39,639 bases of DNA. Origin: Gracilibacteraceae bacterium (GTDB lineage: Bacteria > Bacillota > Desulfitobacteriia > Desulfitobacteriales > Syntrophobotulaceae). The stretch spans positions 1 through 39,639 of the forward strand of contig JAISAH010000130.1 in the NCBI GenBank assembly GCA_031266805.1, written 5' to 3'. The position numbers were made by a program, and so were the translations under genes. The notes under the pieces are model-generated. The model did no database searches, was not told where the DNA came from, and saw only the letters and a program-made list of their open reading frames with translations. Positions 7,859 to 39,639 of the stretch are shown in pieces. Each line of letters begins with the position of its first letter. Positions within the stretch are counted from its first letter, which is position 1.

Positions 7859-7885
7859 AAAGTCTGGTTCTTACCTTAATAATGA

Positions 7886-8051
7886 TTCTCTGGGGATAGG
7901 TGTAATTCCTTACCGGCGGTACAGCCCGCGAGCCGCAAGGGAAATGCTGATCAATCAGTGCTTCCCAAGGCAGATCCGTTGTGATTACGGAGCCGACAGT
8001 TATGATCTCTCCGATATCGTCTGAGATCTTACAGTCTGGATGGAAAGAGAT
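7886..8051 (+). promoter_or_regulatory. FMN riboswitch (RFN element)
   Basis: The conserved core is plain: GGTGTAATTCC, then ACCGGCGGTACAGCCCGCGAGCC, and later GCCGACAGTTATG and CAGTCTGGATGGAAAGAG. The P1 stem pairs CTCT (7888-7891) with AGAG (8046-8049). FMN binding would favour the downstream terminator and shut off riboflavin synthesis genes. The element lies between a strong promoter and ribD, as in other Bacillota. Confidence 0.96.
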
Positions 8052-8097
8052 GGTTTCTCCGGGACTTTTGTTCCGGAGTGATGTCTGTTTTACGTTC

Positions 8098-19406: not shown

Positions 19407-19590
19407 CTAAATCAAGCCGGCGCCTATCAATAAAGCCAACCAAATAAAAACTGTCAGGATCGAAAAAACGGAAGAGTAAACAACTTGCTGTCCCGCCAGC
19501 TCGGCGTCTCCACCCAATTGGTGGGCTACAGCGTAAGAAAAATCGGGAATACGGCGCTAAACGCCATTAGCATTATTGTCAAGCTAATTT
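19407..19590 (-). pseudogene. Frameshifted C-terminal remnant of an auxin efflux carrier (AEC) family permease
   Basis: On the minus strand one frame reads LTIMLMAFSAVFPIF, then hits a stop. A second frame continues SYAVAHQLGGDAELAGQQ and VVYSSVFSILTVFIWL before a TAG at 19409-19407. Adding one T to the T5 run near 19548 joins them. The GGDAELA followed by a hydrophobic helix is the usual end of AEC-type malate/auxin carriers. About 55 residues remain of a protein that is normally about 310. The upstream end overlaps the last codons of the dehydrogenase gene, implying a deletion at that junction. Confidence 0.65.
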
Positions 19591-20487
19591 CCTGCTGCGC
19601 CCGTTCACTCCGGCCAATTGTTCGTAAAACTTGACGATAGCGACACAGTCTTCCTCGCCCCAACCTTGAGACATGCCCACATTCAGCAATTCGTAAGCGT
19701 TCGCGATCACCGGCAAAGGCATACCGATCTGATGCGCCATATCCAAAGCCAGACCCACATCTTTCCGAGCCGTCTCCAGCTTGAACCGCGGCTCCGCCAT
19801 ACTGCCGTCCAAGACCCAAGGAATTCGCTTGTTCAAATGATAAGAGCGGGCGCCGCTGGTATTCAGGATCTGATACAGCAAGTCCGGATCCACGCCGGCT
19901 TTAACGCCAAGCATAAAGCCCTCTGTCGTAGTCACCATGTTGCTGATGGCGATGGCGTTGTTTACCAGTTTGACGGTCACTCCGGCGCCGGACGGCCCGG
20001 CCCGATGTATGACGCCTTTGCCGCCCAGCGCCTGGAACACGGCCTCGCCTTTGGCCACATCCTCGTCGTCGCCGCCGATAATCAGCGTCAAAGTGCCGTC
20101 ATAACAATTGGCAGGGCCGCCGCTCACCGGCGAGTCAACAAAGCCCACCCCGCTTTTTTTCCCTGCTTCATAACATACCCTGGTAGTCTGAAGATCAACG
20201 CTGCTCAGATCAATACAAACAGTGCCAGCCTTCGCGTTTTTCAGCACCCCGTCCTCGCCCAGATAAACATCGGTCACCGCTTTGGAATGCGGCAAAGAAG
20301 AACAGATGATATCGCAGTTTGCCGCGACTTCAGCCGCGCTGCCCGCCAGCGCCGCCAAGTGTTTAAAGCCCTCCGCGACTTCTTTTCTGAGCTCAAAAGC
20401 CAGAACAGAAATGCCGCACTCCGCCAACCGATTCACCATGTTGCCGCCCATCAGCCCCAATCCTATGAAACCAACTTGCTGCGCCAT
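19579..20487 (-). CDS. Beta-hydroxyacid dehydrogenase (3-hydroxyisobutyrate dehydrogenase family)
   Basis: At 302 residues this NAD(P)-dependent oxidoreductase matches the tartronate semialdehyde reductase / 3-hydroxyisobutyrate dehydrogenase family. The GFIGLGLMGGNM dinucleotide site, DSPVSGGPANCYDGTLT substrate loop, and the catalytic lysine in GAGVTVKLVNNAI are intact. The ATG at 20487 gives the standard MAQQVGFIG start behind GGGAGG; earlier ATGs at 20505 and 20526 are less likely. It begins 28 bases after the SDR stop. Its last ten or so codons run into the permease remnant, so the C-terminus may not be ancestral. Substrate is unknown. Confidence 0.92.
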   Translation of the reverse strand: MAQQVGFIGLGLMGGNMVNRLAECGISVLAFELRKEVAEGFKHLAALAGSAAEVAANCDIICSSLPHSKAVTDVYLGEDGVLKNAKAGTVCIDLSSVDLQTTRVCYEAGKKSGVGFVDSPVSGGPANCYDGTLTLIIGGDDEDVAKGEAVFQALGGKGVIHRAGPSGAGVTVKLVNNAIAISNMVTTTEGFMLGVKAGVDPDLLYQILNTSGARSYHLNKRIPWVLDGSMAEPRFKLETARKDVGLALDMAHQIGMPLPVIANAYELLNVGMSQGWGEEDCVAIVKFYEQLAGVNGRSRKLA

Positions 20488-20515
20488 TTTTCCCGCGCCT
20501 CCCATTTCGCTTCCC

Positions 20516-21301
20516 CTAGATTCCATTTTTTGCCTGCCAGGGCTTCGCAGTGTCCTGCAGCAGCATCTTTCCGCCTGTCACCTCGACGATTTCCCCCGTG
20601 ATGTAGCCGGCGGCGTCGGAAGCGAGAAATACATAGACCTGAGCGATCTCTTTCAAGGTTCCCATGCGCCGCATGGAAATCTGTGAGACTATAGCCTCCA
20701 GCTCTTCCGGCGCGCGTCCGGCCTGGATATCAGTCATCACGCTGCCGGCAGCCACGGCGTTTACCCTGATATTGTAAGGCGCCAGCGCTCCGGCCGCCAG
20801 TTTGGTCAAAGAGTTCATGCCGCCTTTGCTGGCGGCGTAAGACGCCCTTGTGGAGATGGTGATTCTGCCGCTGAAAGAAGAACTGTTCAGGATCACTCCG
20901 CCCCGCTCTTTCATGTGGTTGCCGGCGGCTTTGATCCCCCACATCACGGAACTCAGGTTGACGTTGATTACCTTCATCCAATCTTCCGGATCGACTTCCA
21001 GGATCGGCGAATTGATTATGATACCCGCGTTGTTCACCCAAATATCGATCTGTCCGAAACGGGCCGCCGCGTTATCCGCAAAGTTTTGCACTTCCTCGCA
21101 GTTCGCCACGTTCACCACTTGGGCGTACACATCATAACCGGCCGCGGCAAACTCCCGGCGAACCGCCTCCGTCTTTTCCGGTTTGGTGCCGCAGATGGCG
21201 ATCCGGCAACCTTCTTCGGCGAATTCTGCCGCGATCGCTTTCCCAAAACCGGAATTGCCGCCGGTGATAACGGCCACTTTTCCGCGCAGATTCAAATCCA
21301 T
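20516..21301 (-). CDS. Short-chain dehydrogenase/reductase (classical SDR)
   Basis: The 261-residue protein has the cofactor motif TGGNSGFGKAIA, the structural NNAG, the catalytic serine in NSSSFSGRI and the YxxxK pair in YAASKGGMNS. It ends with the usual GYITGEIVEVTGG. It is a cytosolic NAD(P)H-dependent oxidoreductase of an alcohol or keto group, resembling 3-oxoacyl-ACP reductase and gluconate dehydrogenase-type members. It lies between the DUF6282-like hydrolase and the beta-hydroxyacid dehydrogenase, with short gaps suggesting one transcript. The substrate cannot be assigned. Confidence 0.93.
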   Translation of the reverse strand: MDLNLRGKVAVITGGNSGFGKAIAAEFAEEGCRIAICGTKPEKTEAVRREFAAAGYDVYAQVVNVANCEEVQNFADNAAARFGQIDIWVNNAGIIINSPILEVDPEDWMKVINVNLSSVMWGIKAAGNHMKERGGVILNSSSFSGRITISTRASYAASKGGMNSLTKLAAGALAPYNIRVNAVAAGSVMTDIQAGRAPEELEAIVSQISMRRMGTLKEIAQVYVFLASDAAGYITGEIVEVTGGKMLLQDTAKPWQAKNGI

Positions 21302-21355: not shown

Positions 21356-22264
21356 TTATTCCGTTGCCAAACCCAGATACCGCGCCGGGTTCACCTGCAC
21401 CATTTTCCTGACCTCATCAGCGGAAAAACCGATATTCAGCATAGTGGCTATATACATCCGCATCAGTTCCGGCTCCGGGGGATTCCAAGGACCAAAGGCG
21501 TCGGAACTCATGATAGCGTGATCCACGCCCACCGCCTCAATGGACTTGGCGATGACGCGCGGATCGACCCGGACGTGCATCGGCATGCAAGCGATAAAGG
21601 TATGCTCGATCCAGGCGCCTGTCGCGGCCGCTTCCACCTGCTGCTCCACCGTAGCGGCCACGGACTTGATATGGGGATGCGAGAAGGTGAAGCGGACGCC
21701 TTTTACCGCCGCCAACTCGGCCAGCTTCAATGTTTCCGCCGGACTGAGATGACCGGAAGAAACCGCCATGCCGTAATGCTCGGCGATATCCATAATGTCG
21801 GACACTTCCGGTTTGACCCGGCCGGCTGCATCCAAAACGGTGACGCCGCCGTTTTCTCTGCGCACCATATCGTCAACCTGGGGACAAAAAGCCCGGATCC
21901 GGTTCAGCGTGACGCCGCTTCTTTCGATATCATTCCGGGAACTCCAGGTGGGCATAAACACGACTTTCCCGCCCAGTTCCCCCGCTAGGGCCACCGCCGT
22001 CGGACTCAGGCCGCCGACAGTGTAGTTCAGCGTGACCGAACCCATGACCAAAACGTCTTGGGCCAGCCGCGAGAGTTCATAAGCCTGCATTACCGTGGGC
22101 CAGACGTGGGATTTCAGCACATAGCCGCGGATCCCGCACTCTTTGGCCATAACCGCCCAGTCATAATTGCTGATCCGCGAATCATAACTCAGTGACAACT
22201 CCGGGTAAGAATGAGCATGGACATCCACTGCCCCGCGCAGCAATTCTTCTACCGCTAATGACAT
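21356..22264 (-). CDS. Amidohydrolase-like protein, probable DUF6282 family
   Basis: A 302-residue protein with the metal-binding VDVHAHSYPE near the N-terminus, further histidines in VLKSHVWPT, SSGHLSP and TFSHPHIKS, and an aspartate in MSSDAFGPWNPP near the C-terminus. It ends with MVQVNPARYLGL, the usual last helix of TIM-barrel metal-dependent hydrolases. I recognise this as the family called DUF6282, but the name should be verified. Such proteins are found beside MmgE/PrpD and UGSC genes in catabolic clusters, as here. The reaction is unknown; hydrolysis of an amide, lactone or similar bond is a reasonable guess. It starts 28 bases after the MmgE/PrpD stop. Confidence 0.8.
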   Translation of the reverse strand: MSLAVEELLRGAVDVHAHSYPELSLSYDSRISNYDWAVMAKECGIRGYVLKSHVWPTVMQAYELSRLAQDVLVMGSVTLNYTVGGLSPTAVALAGELGGKVVFMPTWSSRNDIERSGVTLNRIRAFCPQVDDMVRRENGGVTVLDAAGRVKPEVSDIMDIAEHYGMAVSSGHLSPAETLKLAELAAVKGVRFTFSHPHIKSVAATVEQQVEAAATGAWIEHTFIACMPMHVRVDPRVIAKSIEAVGVDHAIMSSDAFGPWNPPEPELMRMYIATMLNIGFSADEVRKMVQVNPARYLGLATE

Positions 22265-22292: not shown

Positions 22293-23645
22293 TTAACTCA
22301 GGGTACTCAGATAGCCGATAAAAGCCCGGCAGGAACCGAAAGCGCTTATGTCTTTCAGTTTTGCCAAAAATTCCCTCGTTTTTTCCTCGCCCAGCACCGG
22401 CGCCACCTGAAAACGGCTCTTATTTTCCAGCATGGCCTGGGAAAGGGGAAACTCCGGAGACCCGCTGGGTTTTGGCGTCTCGGCCATGAAAGTCCGACCG
22501 CCCTTCGTGGTCACTTCCGCCCGATAAGGCCATTCCCGAGGGTATCTGGCGGTCATCGCCTCATCGGCGGCCACGCTCACTAATTTCGCGTAAGCCGCCG
22601 CCTCCGGACTGCGGATGGCCTCCGGCGTAAAATCACTGATCGACAATCCGCCTTTGAGAAGGTAGGCGGCGATATTGTAATGGATGCTGAACTGCGCGTC
22701 CAGTACGGTGTCCGGCCGCGGCCGGTCCCCTTCCTCCGCCGCCATTTTGAATGTGACGATCCGGATCTGAGCCAGATCCTCTTTTTTCAGCTTATTCTCC
22801 GCCAGACAGGCGGCCGCGGCGTCTACGGCTCCGTGCATGAAGCGGCAGGAGGGATAGGGTTTAAGGCTGGCGCCGAGGAATCGGTATTCCGTGCCCAGAC
22901 TGCCCAGAAGGATATCTTCATCCCACTCTCCCGCTTCGCATCTGAATAGTCCGAATTGACCGGTCAGACTTTCTCCGGGATCAGCGAAACCTTCTTTGGC
23001 CAGCAGCGCGGAAGTGACGCCGCTTTCCGCCGATTTTGCCGCGTGATAGGCGCTGTTGACGATACTGCCGTCGATTTGGTATTGACGGTAGCCGCAGGCC
23101 GTGTCCGCCGCCAGACGGAGAGCCGCGCAAGTCCTTTCACCGTCAAGTCTTAGGAGCTTCGCGGCGGCCGCGGCTACTCCCAGCGGATTGCAGGTGCCGG
23201 TAGGATGAAAACCTCTGTCATAATGCCGCGGATTGATCGCTGTCGCCACCCTGGCCGCGACTTCATAGCCGAGGATCACCGCGGTCAGCATTTCTTCGAT
23301 CGAGGCGTCCAGCCACTCGCCGACGGCCAGAGCGCTCATGATCACCGCCGCTCCGCTGTGTACGGTGCCGGATTCCAAGACGTCGTCAAAAGTATTGTTT
23401 CTGGCCAGATAAGCGTTGACCGCCGCCGCGTCGCGCGCCGAGATCTTTTGGGGCGAGAGCAGCACCGAGGCCTGCTCGGCGGCGCCAAAACCGCGGTATA
23501 CCCCGGTCAGTGTATCGGCAAAAGGTCCTTTGACGCCGGCGACGCCGCAGGCAAAAACGTCCATGATCAATTGCCGCAAATATGGAAAATCTTTGCTATT
23601 GACTTCGGTATTGGCTACAAAATCCGCCAGCTTTTTAGTCGCCAT
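22293..23645 (-). CDS. MmgE/PrpD family protein
   Basis: This 450-residue protein belongs to the MmgE/PrpD family, whose characterised members are 2-methylcitrate dehydratase and iminodisuccinate epimerase or lyase. Family features are MDVFACGVAG near residue 30, SGTVHSGAAVIMSALA, GYEVAARVATAINPRHYDRGFHPT (shown here as its two halves GYEVAARVATA and HYDRGFHPTGT) and SLKPYPSCRFMHGAVDAA. It may dehydrate a hydroxy-polycarboxylate. The ribosome site is AAGGAGAT. It follows the UGSC gene after a 115-base gap with two strong hairpins and precedes the DUF6282-like gene. With aconitase at the cluster's end, a tricarboxylate route is conceivable but unproven. Confidence 0.9.
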   Translation of the reverse strand: MATKKLADFVANTEVNSKDFPYLRQLIMDVFACGVAGVKGPFADTLTGVYRGFGAAEQASVLLSPQKISARDAAAVNAYLARNNTFDDVLESGTVHSGAAVIMSALAVGEWLDASIEEMLTAVILGYEVAARVATAINPRHYDRGFHPTGTCNPLGVAAAAAKLLRLDGERTCAALRLAADTACGYRQYQIDGSIVNSAYHAAKSAESGVTSALLAKEGFADPGESLTGQFGLFRCEAGEWDEDILLGSLGTEYRFLGASLKPYPSCRFMHGAVDAAAACLAENKLKKEDLAQIRIVTFKMAAEEGDRPRPDTVLDAQFSIHYNIAAYLLKGGLSISDFTPEAIRSPEAAAYAKLVSVAADEAMTARYPREWPYRAEVTTKGGRTFMAETPKPSGSPEFPLSQAMLENKSRFQVAPVLGEEKTREFLAKLKDISAFGSCRAFIGYLSTLS

Positions 23646-23760: not shown

Positions 23761-25416
23761 CTATTCTTCGATCTTTTTCGTGATGGAGAAGCCGACGCCG
23801 GTGGTGTAAGAGGACTTCGTGGCCTCGCCGCCGGTGACGATGATCCGGAACCAGTCGGGGCTGGATACGATAGGCAGCGTGGCGCCGGTAGTGTCGGTGA
23901 AGATCCAGCGCAAACCGCGGATGACCCGTCCGGTTTCATAGGTGTTGGCAAAAACGGATGCGGGCTGAACGGCCTTGCTGAACAGATAGGCCTGGACATC
24001 CTGTTTATTCCATCCGTGCTTGGCAATGATCTGCGCATGATCGGGGCACAGCAGCACCGCGTTATGGGTGAAGCGGCCGACGAACCAGGCGCGGTTCGCG
24101 TAAGAAGCCAGCCCGTTGATGGTGTAGGCGTAACTGTTCAGGATGCCTTCCGGAGTTTCGTTTTTCATATCGAAAATCTCCAGCTGCGATTCCACGCCGA
24201 ATACAGTAACCGTACTCTCATCCTTGCTGTAACCCATATCAACATGGTAAGGGCTCCACGGGCTGTTCTCCTCGTTCTCAGCCAGACACATGCTGTACTT
24301 GATCGGCGCGCCCAAAGTGTCAAGATCCAGTTCGCCGACATAAGCGTGACCGATGTTCATGATGATCAGACGAAGCGCGCGGCCGATCACGGTGTTCACC
24401 GCGGATTGCGAACCGGGGCCCAAGGCGCCGCGGCCGGAGCAGATGTTCAGTTTTTTTGCAATCGGGCCGTTGACGACCAGAAGAGGAGCGTGAGGGCCGG
24501 TGGAAGTGGTGACAGTCCTTAACCGATATTTGTCGTCCGTCATCGCCTCTACACTGGCGATCAGGATTGGCAGATGCGCCGGCGCGCAACCGGCCATCAC
24601 GGCGTTGACAGCGATTTTTTTCACTGTAGCGAAACCCTGTCCCGGATCCATCACCGCGACGATATCGCTCGGTTTCCGCTTCGTGCCTTTCAGCATGGCG
24701 TTTACCCGTTCCGCTGTAGGAGGGATGAGGGGGAAGCCGTCGCCCCATCTCTCGGAAAGGAAGAGCTCGTTCATTTTTTCCCAGGCGGCAAACTCGCTGG
24801 CGCCGGAGACCTCGACGGTTTCGGCGTCTTTCTGGGCTATAGCAGCCATATCTTCTTCCTGTCCCTGGGATTTTGCCTTGCCGCCCTTGTCTCCCTTTGT
24901 GGTCAGATTATTGACCAGCTGATCCGTTATCTGGTCGATGGCCGTCCAAATCTCATCTTTGCTGAGATTGGTGATGGTGTTGCAGGGCATGATCGTATAT
25001 TTATGATCCGGCATACCAAAGCTGGCGCAAGTCAGTTTCACGTCGTCCTCGAAAGGAACGCTTTCCAGCGAAGTACAGGGGACGCCTCTCTTTTCCATCT
25101 GAACCAAATCGTGAACCAGCCAGGAAGTGCAGGAACCGCAGTCGCCGGTGCTGCCGATGATCACGTCGCAAGCCGCGGGAACAATGTCGTGCGTTTCCGG
25201 TTTGCAAGGAAAGTCATCGTCAAAGAATTTGATAGTGACGTTCTTGTATAATTTTGCCAAATTATCGCCGGCCCTGCGCAGGGCTATATCGCCGCCGCTT
25301 TTGCGGTTCCAGTACAGACCGATGGTTTTTCCATCCAAAGTATCGGGGCGTTTCGCAATCGGATAAACGATGCTGGTTTGAGCTGACTCAGGGGTTAAAA
25401 GCGTTAATTTTTCCAT
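23761..25416 (-). CDS. UGSC-family protein (cysteine form) fused to a conserved C-terminal domain of unknown function
   Basis: The 551-residue protein has two parts. Residues 1-175 form a UGSC-type domain: GLYWNRKSGGD, KFFDDDFPC, and the key motif GSTGDCGSCTSWLVHD, in which Cys93 (codon TGC) stands where homologues carry selenocysteine. A charged linker (about 175-200, GDKGGKAKSQGQEED) joins a second domain, with WGDGFPLIPPTAERV, MAGCAPAHLPIL, GRGALGPGSQSAVN, and a C-terminal TGGEATKSSYTTGVG. The CxxC-like CGSC suggests a redox or thiol role, but the reaction is not known to me. The second half seems related to the partial protein at the window's right edge. It starts after AAGGAG and lies between an MBL-fold hydrolase and MmgE/PrpD. 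Confidence 0.82.
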   Translation of the reverse strand: MEKLTLLTPESAQTSIVYPIAKRPDTLDGKTIGLYWNRKSGGDIALRRAGDNLAKLYKNVTIKFFDDDFPCKPETHDIVPAACDVIIGSTGDCGSCTSWLVHDLVQMEKRGVPCTSLESVPFEDDVKLTCASFGMPDHKYTIMPCNTITNLSKDEIWTAIDQITDQLVNNLTTKGDKGGKAKSQGQEEDMAAIAQKDAETVEVSGASEFAAWEKMNELFLSERWGDGFPLIPPTAERVNAMLKGTKRKPSDIVAVMDPGQGFATVKKIAVNAVMAGCAPAHLPILIASVEAMTDDKYRLRTVTTSTGPHAPLLVVNGPIAKKLNICSGRGALGPGSQSAVNTVIGRALRLIIMNIGHAYVGELDLDTLGAPIKYSMCLAENEENSPWSPYHVDMGYSKDESTVTVFGVESQLEIFDMKNETPEGILNSYAYTINGLASYANRAWFVGRFTHNAVLLCPDHAQIIAKHGWNKQDVQAYLFSKAVQPASVFANTYETGRVIRGLRWIFTDTTGATLPIVSSPDWFRIIVTGGEATKSSYTTGVGFSITKKIEE

Positions 25417-25502: not shown

Positions 25503-26276
25503 TCAAGGGGACATAAGACGCCCCTCCTTTCTGAAGACATTACTGTCGTGCGCAGGCAAAACGGTAACGCCTTCTTTTTCTATCATCTGCTGAATTTTTT
25601 CCATGGAAGCCCAAACATCAGCCGTATTGTTAAAAACCCCTCCGGGAATTCCCGTTTCTAAATTTTCAGAGGTATTGACAATATCGCCAGGGAGCAAAAA
25701 CTTCCCTTCGGGCGTGTCGACCAGCACGCCCTGAGAACCCGCCGTATGCCCCGGCAACGGAACCAATGCCACGCCTTCGTCGGCTTTTGTGTCGCCATCT
25801 ACTAAAATCAGCCGGTTATAGTAACGTAAAAAGTAAGGGAGACGATCTTTGTAGCACACTTCATAAAACTTGTGATCCGCGCGCAGCGGCGCGACAGCGT
25901 ATAAGAACTCACGCTTTTGCAGATATATTCTGGCGTTAGGCACATACAGCATACCAATAGCGTGATCCCAATGCAAATGGGTCAATATCGCCGTATCAAT
26001 ATCCTCAGGCTTCAAACCGTGGACGGACAAGGCGGCAGTCAAAAGCTGATCTTCACGAATGCTAACCGGGTTATGCTCCGCGCTCAAACGTTCTGCTTCC
26101 GGCCCCGGACCCGCGTCGACAAGAATATGGCGGCCGTCTTCGAGATTTGTCAGCAACCAGGCAATGAGCGGCGAGGGTACGATTCTTCCGACGTCATTTG
26201 CCACGCCAAAACGACTGATCAAAGTCGCCATCGTCATATCCAGCGTTCCCAAATTTAGCGGAGCTATTTTCCACAT
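25503..26276 (-). CDS. MBL-fold metallo-hydrolase, N-acyl homoserine lactonase-like
   Basis: The 257-residue enzyme has the metal motif LTHLHWDHAIG (HxHxDH), a further histidine in LPGHTAGSQGVLV, an aspartate in LLPGDIVNT and HDSNVF near the C-terminus. Overall order and size resemble the lactonase branch of the metallo-beta-lactamase fold, with two metals expected. In this catabolic setting it more likely opens a lactone or thioester intermediate than quenches quorum signals; that is inference. It begins ATG after GGGGGGCGGCGGG. It sits 70 bases after the AtoE-like gene, the gap holding a perfect hairpin. Confidence 0.9.
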   Translation of the reverse strand: MWKIAPLNLGTLDMTMATLISRFGVANDVGRIVPSPLIAWLLTNLEDGRHILVDAGPGPEAERLSAEHNPVSIREDQLLTAALSVHGLKPEDIDTAILTHLHWDHAIGMLYVPNARIYLQKREFLYAVAPLRADHKFYEVCYKDRLPYFLRYYNRLILVDGDTKADEGVALVPLPGHTAGSQGVLVDTPEGKFLLPGDIVNTSENLETGIPGGVFNNTADVWASMEKIQQMIEKEGVTVLPAHDSNVFRKEGRLMSP

Positions 26277-26346: not shown

Positions 26347-27786
26347 TCAGAAAACCACAAGGAAGAAGAAGGTGCAGACGATATACGTCCCTATGCAGAA
26401 TACAAGTGTATAAGGAAGCATTTTTCTGAACTCGACGTGGCAAAGAGCGACGTGAGGCAGGCACCAGAAAGGTTGAATGGCGTTGGTGGTCAGATCGCCG
26501 AAGGTGTAGGAGAGCAGCAGCGCCGGAATGTCGATATTCAGTTTGGCCGCAACATCTAAGAGATAGGGAGCTTCAATGACAAATTTTGACCCCCCGGAGG
26601 GAACCGCCAGATTCAAAATCGACGAGTAGATATAAGCGACAAACAAGAAGGTATCCGAGGTGGAAACAGTGAGGAAGGCGTTGGAGATGACGTCAGACAG
26701 GCCGGTATAGACGATTATGCCGAAGATTCCCGCATAAAGAGGAAACTGAACGATGATGCCCCAGCAAGCGCCTGTCGTCGCTATGGCTGCCTGGGTAAAG
26801 CGTTCGGGGGTGCCGCACAGCAGGAAGCCGGCCATGAGCGTGACAAAAATGAAATTATTCAAAGTTAAGCCGTCTATCCCTTGTGTAGCAAACAATCTGA
26901 CGCACCAGACCGCCCCGAATATGCCAACAATATAAGACAGTATCCGGCTGTTATTGATCCAGTTCGCGAAGGTGCTGCGATCCGGGTTCTGCTCATACAT
27001 TGAGGTGACCTGAGCCATGTCGTCCAACAGTCCCTTGGTCGCTCCCTGCATTTTCGAGCCGTTTTTCGGCACCAGCAAGCATACGGCGACAAAAATCATG
27101 ACGAATATGATCGCGATCAAAACCAGATGTTTCCAGCCAAGAACGGTCGTAGTGAGAGGATAGACGTCAGCCAAATAGTCCCGCGCAGTATCACTGGCGG
27201 CTAAACTTTTCAGATATCCCGGAGTATTGCCGTAAAGCGGAGCGGCTTGGGAGATGCCGATTCCCGGGATAGTGCAGCAATAGGTGGCGGCGACCAGAGC
27301 CGGCCCGTGAATAGGATATCCTTTTTCCTTGGCCGCCAGCAGGACGTTGCGCAGCATGGCGATTCCCACCATCATGCCGATGCCCCAGTGGAAGTAAATA
27401 AGGATCCAGGCACTGATAAGGACCAGAGCATAGGCCTGGAACCAGTTGTTCGGCAGCACGGCCACTTTCCGGATCAGCTTCTGCACCGGCGGGGCGACAG
27501 CCACAATATTGCCGGTGATCATGATCATGCTCATCTGCATGGCAAAAGTCATCAAACTCCAGAAACCCTGGGTCCAGGAGTTCATGACGCTGGTCTGCCC
27601 TTCGGCGCTGTCAAAAAAGAGCGGAGCGTTAGTGAAGATCAGCGCCAGGACGATGACAATGACCGTGAGCAGAAAAGCCCACACCATTGAATTCGGCGTG
27701 TAGGTTTCAAAAAACCAGATAAACTTTTCCACAAAGGTTTTTTTCTTGTTGTTATCAGCATTCTCCGTATTCGTTTCCGATGTCAT
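26347..27786 (-). CDS. atoE: Short-chain fatty acid transporter, AtoE family
   Basis: A 479-residue membrane protein with about 12 helices beginning FVEKFIWFFETYTPNSMVWA. The family is recognised by FHWGIGMMVGIAM, GYPIHGPALVAATYCC, IVQFPLYAGIFGI and, near the C-terminus, AVPSGGSKFVIEAPYL and TFGDLTTNAIQPFWCLPH. AtoE-type proteins move short-chain fatty acids such as butyrate or acetoacetate. Here it could export a CoA-transferase product such as acetate or take up a short-chain substrate. It follows the 3-hydroxyacyl-CoA-dehydrogenase-like gene by 42 bases, with ribosome site AGGGGAG. Confidence 0.92.
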   Translation of the reverse strand: MTSETNTENADNNKKKTFVEKFIWFFETYTPNSMVWAFLLTVIVIVLALIFTNAPLFFDSAEGQTSVMNSWTQGFWSLMTFAMQMSMIMITGNIVAVAPPVQKLIRKVAVLPNNWFQAYALVLISAWILIYFHWGIGMMVGIAMLRNVLLAAKEKGYPIHGPALVAATYCCTIPGIGISQAAPLYGNTPGYLKSLAASDTARDYLADVYPLTTTVLGWKHLVLIAIIFVMIFVAVCLLVPKNGSKMQGATKGLLDDMAQVTSMYEQNPDRSTFANWINNSRILSYIVGIFGAVWCVRLFATQGIDGLTLNNFIFVTLMAGFLLCGTPERFTQAAIATTGACWGIIVQFPLYAGIFGIIVYTGLSDVISNAFLTVSTSDTFLFVAYIYSSILNLAVPSGGSKFVIEAPYLLDVAAKLNIDIPALLLSYTFGDLTTNAIQPFWCLPHVALCHVEFRKMLPYTLVFCIGTYIVCTFFFLVVF

Positions 27787-27828: not shown

Positions 27829-28785
27829 TCACAGCTTGCCGTGATACTTCAGCAGCAATACCAGCCCCTGATCACGAAAAGCTATTATCTCTTCATTGGT
27901 TCGTCCGTGCCTTTCATCCCGCAAGGCAAGAGCCTCATCCATCATAGGCGTCAACTTTTCTTTCAGTCCATCTGGGTATTTTTTCCAATCGGCCATATCG
28001 CGCCACCACATCTCTTGCGCGTCGCTATACTTCCTGACATTGCCGGCAAGGCCTTCATCCCCCCCGGTCAGATGAAAAACCGCGAAATGTCCCAGCAAAC
28101 CCCAGCGCAGCCCGGGACCGTAGACTACTGCGCGGTCTATTTCATCCATACTGCAAACTCCGCGGTCCAGCAGGTCCAGCGCTTCTCGGTACACCGCCAT
28201 CTGTATCCGGTTGGAGATGAACCCCAACGCCTCCTTGCGCAGGATAATCGGCTCCTTGCCTATCTCCATGTAGAAATCATAAGCCTGTTGCAGCTTTCCT
28301 TCATCCGTCACGTCGCTTCTGGTCATTTCAACCAGCGGAAGCAAAAACACAGGGTTGTACGGATGAGCGCCCACGAACCTCTCCGGGCGTTTAGCCCGCG
28401 CCGCGATGTCCGAAATAAGAAACCCCGAGGTACTGGAAGCGACGATCGTATCAACGCGGCAGTTCGCATCAATGATTTTCGCCATCTCCTGCTTTATCTC
28501 CAATTTCTCCGGCCCGCTCTCCTGCACAAAATCGGCGCTTTTCAGGGCTTTGCTCACGTCTGACGTCATCGTGAAATTTTTCATGAAGATCTCGACTTGC
28601 GCGGGGGTGTACACCTCCGCCTTCACCAAAAAGGCAAAGTTGTCACGGATCCTCTTTTCCGCGTGCGGGAACAGATCTTCGCTCAAGTCATACAGGGTCA
28701 CATCCAATCCGGCCATCAAAAAGTTGGTAGCCCAACCCGTGCCGATCAGCCCGGAACCGAAACAGCAGACATTCTTGATTTTCAA
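27829..28785 (-). CDS. 3-hydroxyacyl-CoA dehydrogenase-like enzyme (possible carnitine dehydrogenase type)
   Basis: The 318-residue protein has the NAD motif CFGSGLIGTGWATNFLMAG, the SSTSGFLIS catalytic-serine region, the histidine in FVGAHPYNPVFLLPLVE, and a C-terminal helical domain with GFISNRIQMAVYREALDL and GLRWGLLG. The HPYNPVFLLPLVEM and GPGLRWGLLG forms are those of members acting on free 3-hydroxy acids, such as L-carnitine dehydrogenase and gulonate dehydrogenase-like (lambda-crystallin) proteins, more than of fatty-acid beta-oxidation enzymes. Together with BKACE upstream this suggests oxidation of a 3-hydroxy acid to the 3-keto acid. It starts ATG after GGAGGGG. The exact substrate is inference. 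Confidence 0.87.
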   Translation of the reverse strand: MKIKNVCCFGSGLIGTGWATNFLMAGLDVTLYDLSEDLFPHAEKRIRDNFAFLVKAEVYTPAQVEIFMKNFTMTSDVSKALKSADFVQESGPEKLEIKQEMAKIIDANCRVDTIVASSTSGFLISDIAARAKRPERFVGAHPYNPVFLLPLVEMTRSDVTDEGKLQQAYDFYMEIGKEPIILRKEALGFISNRIQMAVYREALDLLDRGVCSMDEIDRAVVYGPGLRWGLLGHFAVFHLTGGDEGLAGNVRKYSDAQEMWWRDMADWKKYPDGLKEKLTPMMDEALALRDERHGRTNEEIIAFRDQGLVLLLKYHGKL

Positions 28786-28849: not shown

Positions 28850-30163
28850 TTAAATACGCGAGGGCAGCCACAGGGTTATCTGCGGGAAGATAGCCATCAA
28901 CACCAGCATTATCAAGATGATGATGACAAACGCGGGTACTCCCCGGTAAATTTCGCCGGTGGTGACATTCGGCGGCACTACGCCCATGAGGTAGAACAGG
29001 GATGTAGCGAAAGGAGGTGTAATAAACGAGGTCTGGAGCATGACGACGATCATCATCACTGTCCAGAGGGTATCGAAACCGAAACTGTTCAGAATAGGCA
29101 GGAAGATCGGCATGATGATCAGCATGATGCCAAGCCAGTCAATGAGCATCCCCAGAATAAAGACGATCAGCAAGACGGCGATCAGTGTGCCCCAAGGACC
29201 GAGACCGATGCCGAGGATTGCTTTCTCAACAACAAAATTGCAGCCAATGCCGAAGAAAACGGCTGTGAAGATATTGGCGCCCATAGCGATGAAATAGACC
29301 ATCGTGCTGGTCTTGAGGGCGGAGACAGCGGCGTTGAGAATAGTTTTCCAGTTCAGCTTCCGGTAAGCCAAGGCCAGGATGATGCTGCCCAGCGCGCCTG
29401 TAGCCGCCGCTTCCGTCGGAGCGCAGACGCCGCCCAGGATCATACCAAGAACAGCGACGATCAGGAAGAGGAAGGGCACCAGCGCCAGCAAGCCTTTCAG
29501 GAGCGAGGCCTCGGCGAAATCGGAACTCTCGTAGTCAAAGGTGTCCTTGATCATATCCTTGCGCAGCCTGACGACGAAAAAAGTATAGAGAATGTACATA
29601 ATACCCAGACCGACGCCGGGGACGATCGCCGCGCTAAAGAGTTTGACCACGGAGATGCCGGCCGCCGGCCCGAAGATCACGAGCATGATTGAAGGCGGGA
29701 TGAGAATCCCCAGTGAACCACCCGCGGCGACGATGCCCGTAGCCAGACTGTGATTGTAGCCGCGTTTTAACATAGCAGGCAAAGCCAGAAGACCCATAGC
29801 TGTGACCGAAGCGCCGACGACCCCGGTGCAGGCGGCGAAGATGATGCAGAGAACGAGGGTGGCAATGCCGACGCCGCCTTTGATCTTGCGCATCCAGTAG
29901 CCCAGACAGTTGAAGGCTGTCTCCGCGACGCCCGAGGTGTCCAGCATCGCCCCCATGAAAATGAACAGCGGGATGGCGATATAGGTGTAATTCTGAAAGA
30001 CGCCGAAGGTCTTGGAAGCCAAGAGCGGGACAACCATTGGGCCCCAGCCGGTCAGCCCGAAAATCAAACCCATCCCGGCCAGAGTAAAAGCGACCGGGAA
30101 GCCCATGAATACGCCTATGAATACGCCGGCGAACATGAGGACGGTTATTAGCTCGACGCTCAT
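28850..30163 (-). CDS. TRAP transporter large permease (DctM), second system
   Basis: A 437-residue, roughly 12-helix protein with GFPVAFTLAGMGLIFG, the VTAMGLLALPAML segment, GGSLGILIPPSIMLVIFG and QTSFITPPFATSLFYLMG. It differs clearly from the 4544-5839 DctM and is nearer to the FcbT3/TakM type. The start codon overlaps the DctQ stop in an ATGA. With DctQ and the DctP protein encoded upstream it forms a full Na+-dependent importer. Confidence 0.94.
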   Translation of the reverse strand: MSVELITVLMFAGVFIGVFMGFPVAFTLAGMGLIFGLTGWGPMVVPLLASKTFGVFQNYTYIAIPLFIFMGAMLDTSGVAETAFNCLGYWMRKIKGGVGIATLVLCIIFAACTGVVGASVTAMGLLALPAMLKRGYNHSLATGIVAAGGSLGILIPPSIMLVIFGPAAGISVVKLFSAAIVPGVGLGIMYILYTFFVVRLRKDMIKDTFDYESSDFAEASLLKGLLALVPFLFLIVAVLGMILGGVCAPTEAAATGALGSIILALAYRKLNWKTILNAAVSALKTSTMVYFIAMGANIFTAVFFGIGCNFVVEKAILGIGLGPWGTLIAVLLIVFILGMLIDWLGIMLIIMPIFLPILNSFGFDTLWTVMMIVVMLQTSFITPPFATSLFYLMGVVPPNVTTGEIYRGVPAFVIIILIMLVLMAIFPQITLWLPSRI

Positions 30164-30699
30164 AGTTCATCCTCCTCGATGGCGGCAGCCGGGGTAAAAT
30201 AGGCGCTCATGCTGCGGAGCAGTTCGACGGCGCCCTGTAAGAGGAGAACGATCATTGAGATCAGCAGAACCATCCGGCAGGGCCACATCAAGGGCAGCCA
30301 GGAAGTCTGCGCCGAGCTTTCGGCATGGATATACGAATTGACTAGGGCGGTCTTGCAGGACCCGATCATGAAGAACATAAACGGGAAGAAGAATACCATG
30401 TAGCCAATAAGGTCGAGAACGAACTTGCCGCGGGCTGACACCTTCTGATAGATGATGTCCGCCCGGACATGACCGTTTTCCTTGAGGACATAGGCGCCGC
30501 CCAGAAAGACTGAAGAACCGGTGAGCATCCATACCAGCTCGATGCCCCAAATGCTCGCGCCCGAAAGAAAATACCTGTTCACAACATCATAGATAAAGAT
30601 GAATACTAAGGGATAGATCAAGAAACAGGCGAAATAAAAAATGCATTTGTTCATCTGGCTGATCGTCTTATCACACAATTTAAGGATTCTCAATATCAC
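30160..30699 (-). CDS. TRAP transporter small permease (DctQ), second system
   Basis: At 179 residues with four helices it contains the conserved RYFLSGASIWGIELVWML and GGAYVLKENGHVRADIIY segments of the larger DctQ subtype. The start is a GTG seven bases after AGGAGG. The last four bases overlap dctM, so the two permeases are translationally coupled. The gene follows the DctP gene by 75 bases. Confidence 0.92.
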   Translation of the reverse strand: MILRILKLCDKTISQMNKCIFYFACFLIYPLVFIFIYDVVNRYFLSGASIWGIELVWMLTGSSVFLGGAYVLKENGHVRADIIYQKVSARGKFVLDLIGYMVFFFPFMFFMIGSCKTALVNSYIHAESSAQTSWLPLMWPCRMVLLISMIVLLLQGAVELLRSMSAYFTPAAAIEEDEL

Positions 30700-30774
30700 A
30701 CCTTCACCTCCTCAGGAAGATATGCGGTCGAAGAACTCTTTTAGATCAGAACATCCTCGACCGCGCCGTTTTTT

Positions 30775-31884
30775 CTATTCCAGCATCCACTGCGGCCAGG
30801 GCAAGTTCATAGAATCGGAGTATGAAGCGTAGTTTTTCGCGAATTCTTTCTGGGAATCTACAACCCGTTTCATCCAAGGATTGGTTTCAGATTTCTGCTC
30901 CAGCCACTCCTGCACCCACTGATTCATAGTGTTCACGGCGTCATCCGAAAGGAAACAGACTTCGATGCCGGCTTCTTCGATAGCCTTCATGGCGGTGATA
31001 TTATCCATTCTCTGAGCGCCGTAGTTATTGAGGATGGCTTCGGCGCAGGCGGACTCAACGACCGCTTTGAGGTCATCCGGCAGAGCTTCCCATCTATCCT
31101 TCCGGATAGCGATGGCGTTATTACCGCTGGGTTGGTGGATGCCGGGGCGGATGACGTATTTGGCGACATCCTGAAAACCCATGGAGAGGTCGGTACTCGG
31201 CGTGGAGTACTCGCCGGCGTCAATAACGCCGCGCTCCAAACCAGGGACGATCTCCGTGGCGGGCAGTGCGTTGATAGAAATGCCGTGATCGGCGAGCACG
31301 CTGCCGAAAATCGGCATAAATCTCACAATAATGTTCTGCATATCCGCTATCTCGCGAATCGGCTTGTTACTCCACAGGAAATCCTCGCCGTCTACAGCCA
31401 AAGTTAAGAGAATATGCTGGTTCATGTCATAGTAGTCGGCCATCTCCTGCCAAAGTTCCATACCGCCGCCGTATCGAAACCACAGAGCTTGATCGATCGG
31501 TTGAGAGAACAGACCCGGCGTCGATGTGAAAAGAGCGAACGCCTCGTCAATGCCGGTAAGCTGCCCGCCGTAAAAATTTACGCCGTCAACAATGCCGTCG
31601 CGCAGAGCGTTGCCCATTTCACTATTAGGGAAGATAGCGTCCGCCGAATAATACTCTATCTGCAGGCGGCCGTTGGAAAGTTCCATGATCCGTTTCATGA
31701 GAGCTCGGGTGTAATTATCCTGTGTGGTGCCGGCGCTTTGAAAACCCTGGATCTTCCAGGTGATCACCTCGCCGGCCGCCGGCGAAGGCGTGTTGGCCGC
31801 CGGCGCCGCTGCAGGAGAACTGCAGCCGGACGCAACCGCGACGACAAGACAAAGAATACAGAGAAGCGTTAAGGTTTTCTTCAT
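30775..31884 (-). CDS. TRAP substrate-binding lipoprotein (DctP), TakP-like, copy 1
   Basis: The ATG at 31884 follows GAGGAGG and gives a clean lipoprotein signal (MKKTLTLLC, lipobox VASGC). Mature protein 369 residues in total, with WKIQGFQSAGTTQDNY, FRYGGGMELWQEM, LERGVIDAGEYSTPS and VIRPGIHQPSGNN. These are the landmarks of the TakP subgroup, whose characterised member binds 2-keto acids. A keto or hydroxy acid is therefore a fair guess for the ligand. A second, very similar binding protein is encoded at 34124-35239. This copy directly precedes dctQ and dctM. Confidence 0.92.
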   Translation of the reverse strand: MKKTLTLLCILCLVVAVASGCSSPAAAPAANTPSPAAGEVITWKIQGFQSAGTTQDNYTRALMKRIMELSNGRLQIEYYSADAIFPNSEMGNALRDGIVDGVNFYGGQLTGIDEAFALFTSTPGLFSQPIDQALWFRYGGGMELWQEMADYYDMNQHILLTLAVDGEDFLWSNKPIREIADMQNIIVRFMPIFGSVLADHGISINALPATEIVPGLERGVIDAGEYSTPSTDLSMGFQDVAKYVIRPGIHQPSGNNAIAIRKDRWEALPDDLKAVVESACAEAILNNYGAQRMDNITAMKAIEEAGIEVCFLSDDAVNTMNQWVQEWLEQKSETNPWMKRVVDSQKEFAKNYASYSDSMNLPWPQWMLE

Positions 31885-31969
31885 TGACGGGGTCCTCCTC
31901 ATTTGTTTATTATTGATAACTCTTTTCCCAGGTCTGGGTCGCTTCGCTTGCGGCGACTGCTTTGCAAAC

Positions 31970-32977
31970 TCAGACCGGATCGTACCGGCGGGGAGCGCCA
32001 AGGCCAAGCATCTCTCTGGCTTGGGCGACTGTAGCGATCGGGCGGCCCAGTTCCCTGGCGACCCGCACGACCCGCTCCACCAACTGAGCGTTGCTCGCCG
32101 CCGGTTGTTTGGGCCCGTACATCGGATTGTCTTCCATGCCCACGCGGATATGATGGCCGAGAATTATGCCCAGCGTCACCATAGCGTTCTGACTGCCGCC
32201 GATACCGATGATGCTAAACAGAGTCTCCGCCGGCAGGATTCGGGCCGCCTGCAACATGATCTCCACGGTCGGATAAAGACCGGTGCCGCCGAACAGCATT
32301 TGCACCCAATAAGGTTTATCCAAAACCCCGGCGCTTATCATATTGTAGATATGCTTGGCGTTGTGCATGTCAAACATTTCCAGCTCCGGCTTGATCCCGT
32401 TTTTACGCATTTCCCGCGCGGTTTCAATGCAGTCGTCCCACGTCATAAGATAGTCCATATGGTAGTCGACCGCCGGGCGGGGGCATTTGAGCGGCGCTTC
32501 CCGATCCTTTGTGGAGTTCAAATGAGTCAGAGAGGTAATATCCATGCTGGCCAATTCCGGCCGGGCGGCGATCGACGGCCAAATCGGGTCGGAAACCGTT
32601 TTTTCTTCCTTGAAGATCTGGCGGCCGCCCATACAGGTGTTGTTGATGATCACATCCGGGCATTTTTGCCGTACCAGATAGTTGACTTCCTGAAAGTCTC
32701 TGGGCTTACTCGTCGTCGCGTAAAGGTGGAGCGGGTCGCGGGCATGGATATGCACCGACACAGCTCCGGCATTATAGGCGTCATAAGCCGCCCCCGCCTG
32801 TTCTTCCGCGCTCTCCGGCAGATTGGGATTGGCTTCTTTGCCGTGGACGCCGCCGCTGAGAGCGCAGCTGATGATCATAGGAGACATTTTTGTCAGACCG
32901 TGACGAGCAATCTTGTTCACATAGTCCATTGTTTCCCGATAACTGCCTAACAGATAATCCTTGATTCCTTCCGTCAT
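31970..32977 (-). CDS. 3-keto-acid cleavage enzyme (BKACE, Kce family)
   Basis: The 335-residue zinc enzyme condenses a beta-keto acid with acetyl-CoA and cleaves it to acetoacetate plus a shorter acyl-CoA. The metal histidines are His76 and His78 in VSVHIHARDP, and a conserved glutamate is in PELEMFDMH. Also typical are ISCALSGGVHG, INNTCMGG, and HHIRVGMEDN near the C-terminus. The protein has about 30 extra residues before the first strand (family members usually begin at the position of Ile35); the ATG behind GGAGGGG supports this longer form. The neighbours (3HCDH-like enzyme, CoA-transferases, thiolase) can supply its substrate and use its products. Confidence 0.92.
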   Translation of the reverse strand: MTEGIKDYLLGSYRETMDYVNKIARHGLTKMSPMIISCALSGGVHGKEANPNLPESAEEQAGAAYDAYNAGAVSVHIHARDPLHLYATTSKPRDFQEVNYLVRQKCPDVIINNTCMGGRQIFKEEKTVSDPIWPSIAARPELASMDITSLTHLNSTKDREAPLKCPRPAVDYHMDYLMTWDDCIETAREMRKNGIKPELEMFDMHNAKHIYNMISAGVLDKPYWVQMLFGGTGLYPTVEIMLQAARILPAETLFSIIGIGGSQNAMVTLGIILGHHIRVGMEDNPMYGPKQPAASNAQLVERVVRVARELGRPIATVAQAREMLGLGAPRRYDPV

Positions 32978-33054: not shown

Positions 33055-34104
33055 TTAGAATATATCCTCATAGCCTGCCAGTACATCGTCAAAACGCGAC
33101 AGGCAGCCCATATCGTTTACCCCCTTTCTGGCTTCGGCTTCTTTCACCAGCTCGACCACTCTGGTGTTCACCGGGGTGGCAATACCATGTTTTCGGCCAT
33201 ACGCCGCCACATGCCCGTTGATGAAATCAATTTCGGTGGGCAGCTTTTTTTCCAGATCTTGCAGCATACTGGCCTTGCCGTTCCGCCTGGGATCGTACCA
33301 ATGGAAAAAGATTTCCCTGACCCTGCGCATCTCACTTCTGTTTTTCCAGTACAAACTTTCAATATCGGTGTCAAAGGCGGTCAGCATCTTATGGCCTTCG
33401 GCATGGCACACCTCAAGGCACTCTTTGGCAATTATCGCTTTCGCCGTCAGGGCTTTAGGGTTGTCGATTACCTCGCCGTAGGTGCAGTTCAGCGCGGCGG
33501 AAAGACCGCTGCCAGAAGCGTTGACAAGCAACTTGGTCCAGCGCGCGTCCATCAAGTCTTCCATCACATTGCACTTGCCCACGTTGTCCAGTATGGTGGC
33601 CACTGCCTTTATACGCGGGGTAATGCCGCCGCTTAGCTCGCCCAAGTCAAAGGCGGCCTTCTTAAACGCATCGTAGGGAGCTATTTCAGCCGAAACACCC
33701 GGCGAAAGCCAAGTGCCCGGAAAGAGCATGGCGCCGCCTATGGTACGCTCCTGCCCCACCGTCTCGGCCACCGAAGGTTCGGGGATGCCGTTCTGCAGCG
33801 CGCACACTATGCTATCTTCGTTCAAATATTTCAGCAGATTGGGAAGAACCACCGGGTTGGTAGTTTGTTTGTTAAGCAGAAACACCAAGTCGTAAATCCC
33901 TTCCATTTTGTCCGGGGTAAAGGCTTTCACCGAAATGGTAAAGGTTTTATCATCCTCCACATGTTTTATCGTGGCTCCTCTTTCCTGCATGGCCGCCACA
34001 TGCTCTTTGTTGGCGTCATACATCAACACGTCACAACCTGCCTTTGTCAGGTACGCGCCAATAATCGTACCCATCGAACCAGCGCCAATAACTGCAATTC
34101 TCAT
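33055..34104 (-). CDS. Ketopantoate reductase family (ApbA/PanE) oxidoreductase
   Basis: At 349 residues it is longer than the usual 300-310 of PanE. The N-terminal NAD(P) site VIGAGSMGTIIGAYLTKAG is standard, followed by FLLNKQTTNP and CALQNGIPEP, and the catalytic lysine region DARWTKLLVNASGSGLSA. Many ApbA/PanE homologues in catabolic operons are not pantoate enzymes but reduce or oxidise other 2-keto or hydroxy acids. The operon position, between a TRAP binding protein and BKACE, supports such a role. It starts 19 bases after the stop of copy 2 of dctP. Confidence 0.9.
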   Translation of the reverse strand: MRIAVIGAGSMGTIIGAYLTKAGCDVLMYDANKEHVAAMQERGATIKHVEDDKTFTISVKAFTPDKMEGIYDLVFLLNKQTTNPVVLPNLLKYLNEDSIVCALQNGIPEPSVAETVGQERTIGGAMLFPGTWLSPGVSAEIAPYDAFKKAAFDLGELSGGITPRIKAVATILDNVGKCNVMEDLMDARWTKLLVNASGSGLSAALNCTYGEVIDNPKALTAKAIIAKECLEVCHAEGHKMLTAFDTDIESLYWKNRSEMRRVREIFFHWYDPRRNGKASMLQDLEKKLPTEIDFINGHVAAYGRKHGIATPVNTRVVELVKEAEARKGVNDMGCLSRFDDVLAGYEDIF

Positions 34105-39185: not shown

Positions 39186-39210
39186 ATCAATACCCCGCCT
39201 GTTACTGTCT

Positions 39211-39639
39211 TCAACCCCACTGCCAATTGATCTTTCTGGTATTCGGCGTCCCATGCACGCTGTCGATCCACAGGCACTGACTGGAAGCCGAGCCCCAACC
39301 GCCGGATACTAAAATCTGCAGACCTTGGCCGGGCATCATGGCCGGTACCAATGACTCGTCGTCATCCGGATCCGCCACCTTGCTCCAATGGTTTTTGTAA
39401 GTTACAGACAAACCGCCTGTGCGTTTCACATCGCCCACTCGCCGCTTGCACATGTCGATCACAGCGTCCCGGAATTTGATCTTGTCCCAGCCTTGCTCGG
39501 TAAGCAGTTTCACCGCCTGGGGATTGATGACGAAGATCTTCGGATTGGCAGCCCGGAAGTTGCCAAGCTGGATAATGGAATCCTTGATGACGAACATGCT
39601 GTTCTCAAAGGTCTGGTTGCCGATAGCCGCGTTGATCTG
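39211..39639 (-). CDS. Partial gene: protein related to the C-terminal domain of the UGSC fusion protein
   Basis: The frame is open from the window edge to a stop at 39211, giving 142 C-terminal residues; the start lies beyond the window. It contains INAAIGNQTFENS, VKLLTEQGWDK and LQILVSGGWGSASS. These line up weakly with AVNTVIGRALR, IIAKHGWNKQDV and RIIVTGGEATKSS in the second half of the 551-residue UGSC protein at 23761-25416. The relationship is by eye and remote. It is the first visible gene of the minus-strand cluster and lies 25 bases before subunit A of the CoA-transferase. Function unknown. Confidence 0.6.
   Translation of the reverse strand, partial: QINAAIGNQTFENSMFVIKDSIIQLGNFRAANPKIFVINPQAVKLLTEQGWDKIKFRDAVIDMCKRRVGDVKRTGGLSVTYKNHWSKVADPDDDESLVPAMMPGQGLQILVSGGWGSASSQCLWIDSVHGTPNTRKINWQWG

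Follow-up and report, generated by a model that had tools for sequence, protein, structure and literature searches.

Gene content of the locus

The window, i.e., the whole stretch of 39,639 nucleotides that was analysed, contains a series of recognised genes that run from 39639 down to 16325, all on one strand (-). Read from 39639, the series opens with the C-terminal ~143 residues of a divergent second paralogue of the domain here called Unk1 (39205–39639), which is cut by the contig end and was not recovered when the organism's own genome was searched with the Unk1 alignment. This partial gene lies ahead of genes for a CoA-transferase subunit, a thiolase and an acetyl-CoA hydrolase/transferase, which are followed by a dctP gene, a ketopantoate-reductase-like (PanE/ApbA) gene (33055–34104), a gene for a beta-keto acid cleavage enzyme (BKACE; 31970–32977) and the TRAP transporter genes dctM, dctQ and dctP (28850–32007). 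Domain matches identify the TRAP genes and those that come next, encoding a 3-hydroxyacyl-CoA/carnitine-dehydrogenase-like protein (27829–28785), an AtoE-like short-chain fatty acid transporter (26347–27786) and a lactonase-like hydrolase of the metallo-beta-lactamase fold (25503–26276).

The gene of interest, a UGSC-Unk1 fusion, occupies positions 23761–25416 (-). Directly downstream of it is a gene for an MmgE/PrpD family protein (22293–23645), followed by one for a DUF6282 protein (21356–22264) and, again by domain match, by a short-chain dehydrogenase (SDR) gene (20516–21301) and a gene of the 3-hydroxyisobutyrate-dehydrogenase family (19579–20526). The last genes, down to 16325, encode a D-2-hydroxyacid dehydrogenase and a member of the aconitase family. 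An FMN riboswitch (RF00050, 83.7 bits) located at 7882–8055 (+) is unrelated to the UGSC-Unk1 gene.

A UGSC domain with cysteine at the selenocysteine position

The fusion gene has an ATG start and encodes 551 residues. Its N-terminal part (residues 6–172; 24901–25401) matches the UGSC family profile PF24696 (E 6.9e-29; 101.6 bits against a Pfam cut-off of 25), thus confirming the family assignment that the earlier note had made from the sequence, while the score against the NCBIfam equivalog NF041046 (89.4 bits) falls below the cut-off of 125. The family motif [U/C]-G-S-C is represented by C93-G-S-C96, embedded in the segment D92-C93-G94-S95-C96-T97 (25126–25143). Residues 91–99 read GDCGSCTSW and are encoded by ggc gac tgc ggt tcc tgc act tcc tgg; the selenocysteine position, C93, is therefore specified by TGC, as had been stated.

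The second part of the protein (23764–24837) was described in the earlier note as an uncharacterised domain, and residues ~200–551 indeed returned no Pfam, NCBIfam or PDB match by sequence. A metagenome study of the Global Ocean Sampling (GOS) data, published in 2008, reported a fusion of UGSC to a domain named Unknown_1 (PMC2398784), and by the description given there the C-terminal domain of the window protein is taken to be Unknown_1 (Unk1). The window protein thus shares with that system the N-terminal family, above the Pfam cut-off, and the fusion itself, and differs from the UGSC family in its score below the equivalog cut-off. The same study counted 21 cysteine against 255 selenocysteine homologues of UGSC, and it proposed a thioredoxin-like fold for UGSC and a restriction of Unknown_1 to a few aquatic organisms (PMC2398784). 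A review of 2026 still places UGSC among the selenoprotein families of largely uncharacterised function.

The motif cysteines to which the note had drawn attention proved to be well conserved. Among 146 UGSC copies, position 93 is selenocysteine in 117, Cys in 22, Met in six and Gly in one (Sec or Cys in 139/146), and position 96 is Cys in 135. The in-frame TGA of fused selenocysteine frames is that of the motif codon, and further in-frame TGAs are rare. In a tree built on Unk1, and hence on sequence free of the motif, the window protein falls within a set of 15 rows, 14 of them selenocysteine forms (SH-aLRT 100 in a tree made by a quick method with long branches included). Its nearest relatives on this tree are from Chloroflexota, with up to 55% identity, and at least 12 changes, counted on supported branches, are required to explain the cysteine state.

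The organism's own genome, which is 95% complete, yielded neither a selB over cut-off nor a tRNA-Sec above the gathering score; the candidate that came closest, at 46 bits, is a tRNA-Ser. Together with the TGC codon at C93, these results mean that the window holds a cysteine version in a host without selenocysteine machinery, and selenoprotein status for the window protein was accordingly rejected. Among 60 further relatives a copy (cut; 93% identity) is present in just one, which is a congener, and the gene is thus sporadic in its own lineage.

Six further UGSC-Unk1 fusions (L007:6719–8443, L173:5653–7338 and L234–L237) form a single clade in which both motif cysteines have been lost, the motif reading DMGTS. 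Two of these lie by aconitase X, with DUF126 annotated beside it, and four by a shared FAD oxidoreductase. This clade is possibly a non-thiol descendant of the UGSC-Unk1 enzyme.

Kinship and predicted fold of the UGSC domain

GrdB, component B of glycine/sarcosine/betaine reductase (PF07355), contains the segment VILTSTUGTCTRCGATMVKEIERAGLPV, to which VIIGSTGDCGSCTSWLVHDLVQMEKRGVPC of the window protein is similar. When chosen profile pairs were compared with hhalign, UGSC matched the selenocysteine domain of GrdB with 97.2% probability (E 3.4e-11, 143 columns), with C-G-S-C-T of UGSC falling on U-G-T-C-T of GrdB, and the match persisted at 93.7% when the six motif columns were masked. Controls gave at most 2.5% for 30 column shuffles, 5.9% for a reversed profile and at most 4.5% for 14 unrelated neighbour families, while flavodoxins scored 2.3% (18.7% masked) and the Asp/Glu racemase family PF01177 0.2%; the highest of all controls was GrdE, at 22%. 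The match to the D-proline reductase subunit PrdB, at 88.4%, was weaker than that to GrdB. Profile comparison thus places UGSC as a relative of the selenocysteine domain of GrdB and PrdB. The relation to the PF07355 nucleophile domain of glycine/D-proline reductase is one of remote homology only, visible by profile-profile comparison, as single-sequence HMM scans miss it and give no direct PF07355 match. A sequence search of the PDB with GrdB and PrdB returned no convincing solved relative, and a partial literature search found no link between UGSC and glycine reductase.

UGSC and GrdB are alike in the aligned U-G-[ST]-C-T motif of the homologous domain and in an ensuing E+xGxP segment. UGSC differs from GrdB in lacking the latter's ~260-residue N-terminal part, in having Unk1 rather than GrdE as its partner, and in that many of its hosts are not Stickland fermenters. 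The short form represented by PrdB (PF07355) resembles UGSC in being a short UxxC/CxxC nucleophile subunit paired with a separate substrate-activating protein, although that protein, the pyruvoyl subunit PrdA, is replaced by Unk1 in the UGSC-Unk1 system.

In an AlphaFold2 model of the fused protein (pLDDT 94.3, pTM 0.94) strands alternate with helices, and the motif is situated between a strand (residues 85–91) and a helix (residues 94–109). Foldseek searches with this model returned flavodoxin-like domains at low TM, and the fold of UGSC is therefore predicted to be flavodoxin-like; membership of the flavodoxins or of the Asp/Glu racemases themselves was rejected on the profile scores given above. 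The model also bears on the suggestion, in line with the guess of the 2008 study, that the protein resembles thioredoxin and acts as a thiol oxidoreductase or peroxidase, Unk1 being either an accessory domain or a target. A CxxC/UxxC motif at a helix N-terminus and a strong preference for selenocysteine would suit such an enzyme. However, the beta-alpha-beta-alpha-beta-beta-alpha topology of thioredoxin, with its beta hairpin, is not seen in the predicted model, no thioredoxin appears within the top 50 Foldseek matches, and the profile match to GrdB, the catabolic gene context and the near-obligate partner domain likewise speak against a thioredoxin-like protein, which we consider improbable; a thioredoxin fold was rejected on the topology and the Foldseek results.

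UGSC and Unk1 as near-obligate partners

The Unk1 alignment was scanned over one genome per species, yielding at least 588 confirmed relatives; the 80 best loci among these were retained and combined with plasmid loci and the window. In this set, 52 Unk1 copies share a reading frame with an upstream UGSC, three are in frame with a downstream UGSC and 70 have an adjacent UGSC; as only best matches were retained and some loci overlap, these figures are copy counts rather than rates. Four or more of the 'fused' frames, having a second TGA in the stretch that separates the two domains, probably represent split genes. Nine copies are without a nearby UGSC, and several of these, among them the partial copy of the window, are fragments or lie at the end of a contig; a search for the UGSC motif near lone Unk1 genes found none, with two of these loci (L033 and L088) being cut by contig ends. 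In the reverse direction, a UGSC model searched over 249 genomes of the window's phylum detected UGSC in 12 genomes, and Unk1 was present at 21/21 UGSC loci outside the organism's own genome. Computation thus shows UGSC and Unk1 to be near-obligate partners, whichever domain serves as query.

The claim that the C-terminal domain also exists separately is borne out by free-standing genes (e.g., in L002, L004, L010 and L011), which nearly always lie by a UGSC gene, and the two domains are fused or adjacent at nearly every locus. The earlier picture of two joined domains was sound as to the fusion, although incomplete, as Unk1 is a near-obligate partner and the fusion had been reported in 2008 (PMC2398784). 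While that study confines Unknown_1 to a few aquatic organisms, Unk1 as traced here occurs in many bacteria and in haloarchaea. New relative to its account are the GrdB/PrdB kinship and predicted flavodoxin-like fold of UGSC, the near-obligate pairing, the occurrence of a cysteine form inside a selenocysteine clade and in a genome without selB and tRNA-Sec, the conserved residues of Unk1 and the catabolic gene context.

Two variant arrangements were also observed. At four haloarchaeal loci (L004, L172, L177 and L178) two different Unk1 genes flank a single UGSC gene, possibly encoding a heteromeric complex, while an Arthrobacter UGSC protein (L011:7982–8797), located within a trxB-trxA-Unk1-UGSC array, possesses an extra C-terminal NifU-like domain.

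Conserved residues of the Unk1 domain

Residues D226, G317, G345, R346 and E380 are invariant in 127 Unk1 copies, and C277, the sole near-invariant Cys of the domain, is retained in 124 of these. From this pattern of conservation, an active site seems a better description of Unk1 than a scaffold. Modelled alone, the domain reaches a pLDDT of 93.2; neither sequence nor structure searches gave a convincing solved relative, and a comparison with viral structures produced no match. Profile scores of at most 1.1% (GrdE 0.2%) led to the rejection of Unk1 as a relative of GrdE, GrdB or PrdB.

Foldseek searches with Unk1 alone returned weak matches to class I fumarases (E 2e-3, prob 0.57, TM 0.22). 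A fumarase identity was rejected, as the PF05681 profile scores 0.1%, the matches consist of one redundant enzyme group plus M. jannaschii at TM ~0.2, and the CQDTG motif is not found, C277 being the only near-invariant Cys. These matches, the flavodoxin-like fold and the retention of C277 could nonetheless suit a non-redox lyase or isomerase, in which Cys93 (or Sec) would act jointly with Cys277 in covalent or acid-base catalysis, in the manner of maleate isomerase or the Asp/Glu racemases and with no net reduction. Dehydratases and dehydrogenases are encoded nearby (MmgE/PrpD, aconitase family), and many of the hosts are, judging from the lineages named, presumably aerobes in which a Stickland-type terminal reduction is not needed. 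Against such an enzyme stand the lack of profile kinship to Asp/Glu racemases (0.2%) or fumarase (0.1%), and the conserved resolving Cys at +3 combined with the preference for selenocysteine, which indicates redox turnover. We regard a lyase or isomerase as rather unlikely, if the most credible of the alternatives.

Gene context in other genomes

UGSC-Unk1 genes sit in carboxylic-acid catabolic clusters that include TRAP, BKACE, MmgE/PrpD and CoA transferase genes. MmgE/PrpD genes are found near seven other UGSC-Unk1 loci, and DUF6282 genes adjoin UGSC-Unk1 at six (L002, L023, L030, L041, L172 and L174). The haloarchaeal clusters L172 and L174 have in common with the window not only DUF6282 and Unk1 but also BKACE, PanE and a TRAP-type binding protein, while TctC receptors, type III CoA transferases, SDRs and MmgE/PrpD recur at other loci. 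This context of transporters, CoA transferases and dehydrogenases fits the import and breakdown of carboxylic acids.

A single Chloroflexi MAG (JACPQD01; L012–L016, L021, L027, L029, L048 and L086) contains more than 12 UGSC-Unk1 copies, often near genes for family 5 solute-binding proteins, which suggests substrate diversification. Such variety would also be compatible with a reductive dehalogenase or similar C-X-cleaving enzyme acting on halo- or otherwise substituted carboxylates by the same covalent chemistry, with a leaving group other than an amine; moreover, a GrdB/GrdE-like pair is the proposed C-F-cleaving system for fluoroacetate in Synergistota (PMC10838667). As none of the genes identified in the window is a haloacid gene, and as the evidence is identical to that for the reductase-like reading proposed below, from which only the substrate differs, this specific variant appears a long shot.

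A proposed reductase-like enzyme

The earlier note had suggested a thiol-dependent enzyme of unknown reaction. Thiol or selenol chemistry is indeed likely, and the placement of UGSC beside the GrdB/PrdB selenocysteine domain allows a concrete reaction class to be proposed. In glycine and D-proline reductases a chalcogen (Sec) attacks an activated carbon to form a Se-C bond, a thiol then generates a selenenylsulfide, and a dithiol reduces the latter (PMC10298544). We consider the chances about even that UGSC-Unk1 is a two-domain catabolic enzyme that works like, without being, the substrate-specific component of these reductases. What computation shows is the identity of the domains, the homology of UGSC to the selenocysteine domain of GrdB, its close pairing with Unk1, the conserved residues, the fold that is predicted and the gene context; the reaction, the role of Unk1, the substrate and the reductant are inferred. 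Searches of the organism's own genome for GrdB (PF07355) and for the pyruvoyl proteins GrdE/PrdA (PF09338) found neither, and UGSC-Unk1 would thus at most work like the Grd/Prd class rather than be a member as defined. For the same reason, and because Unk1 gave no profile match to GrdE or GrdB, its role as a functional counterpart of the pyruvoyl subunit is a putative one. The six-member clade without both motif cysteines, the probably aerobic nature of many hosts and the fact that the GrdB relation shows by profile-profile comparison alone count against the proposal.

In the proposed enzyme, the UGSC domain would bear the chalcogen nucleophile (Cys93 in the window protein, selenocysteine in most relatives) at the helix N-cap after the central strand of the flavodoxin-like fold. 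Unk1, through Asp226, Arg346, Glu380 and Cys277, would bind and activate a small carboxylic acid, thereby standing in for the pyruvoyl subunit GrdE/PrdA. Cys93 would then attack the activated carbon and displace the leaving group, after which Cys96, whose conservation suits a resolving thiol, would resolve the adduct to give a Cys93-Cys96 disulfide (in Sec forms, a selenenylsulfide). Regeneration would require a dithiol donor, for which the thioredoxin system is the probable candidate, and the released acid would pass to the CoA-transferase, dehydrogenase and BKACE that are encoded nearby.

A TrxB-like gene is found no more than 6 kb from 8/19 Cys-type and 4/81 Sec-type loci (Fisher 1.3e-4), and trxA is also present at two loci. 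The association is significant by locus count but is lost on phylogenetically independent pairs (p 0.375); it was therefore rejected as evidence for the reductant and is at best a hint.

In a broader and somewhat less probable formulation, which we hold tentatively, UGSC-Unk1 would constitute a third lineage within the glycine/proline reductase superfamily, spread over bacteria and haloarchaea. The place of the pyruvoyl subunit would be taken in it by a new activating domain of unsolved fold, and diverse carboxylic acids would undergo Sec- or Cys-dependent reductive bond cleavage in settings other than Stickland fermentation. The kinship with glycine and proline reductase, if it extends to cleavage of a bond in small acids, would give a widespread and unexplained selenoprotein family its first testable function. 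Expression of the cysteine form in E. coli should need no recoding, as this form derives from a genome without selenocysteine machinery, and the GrdB/PrdB placement together with the near-obligate partner would move the family from 'function unknown' to a testable reaction class.
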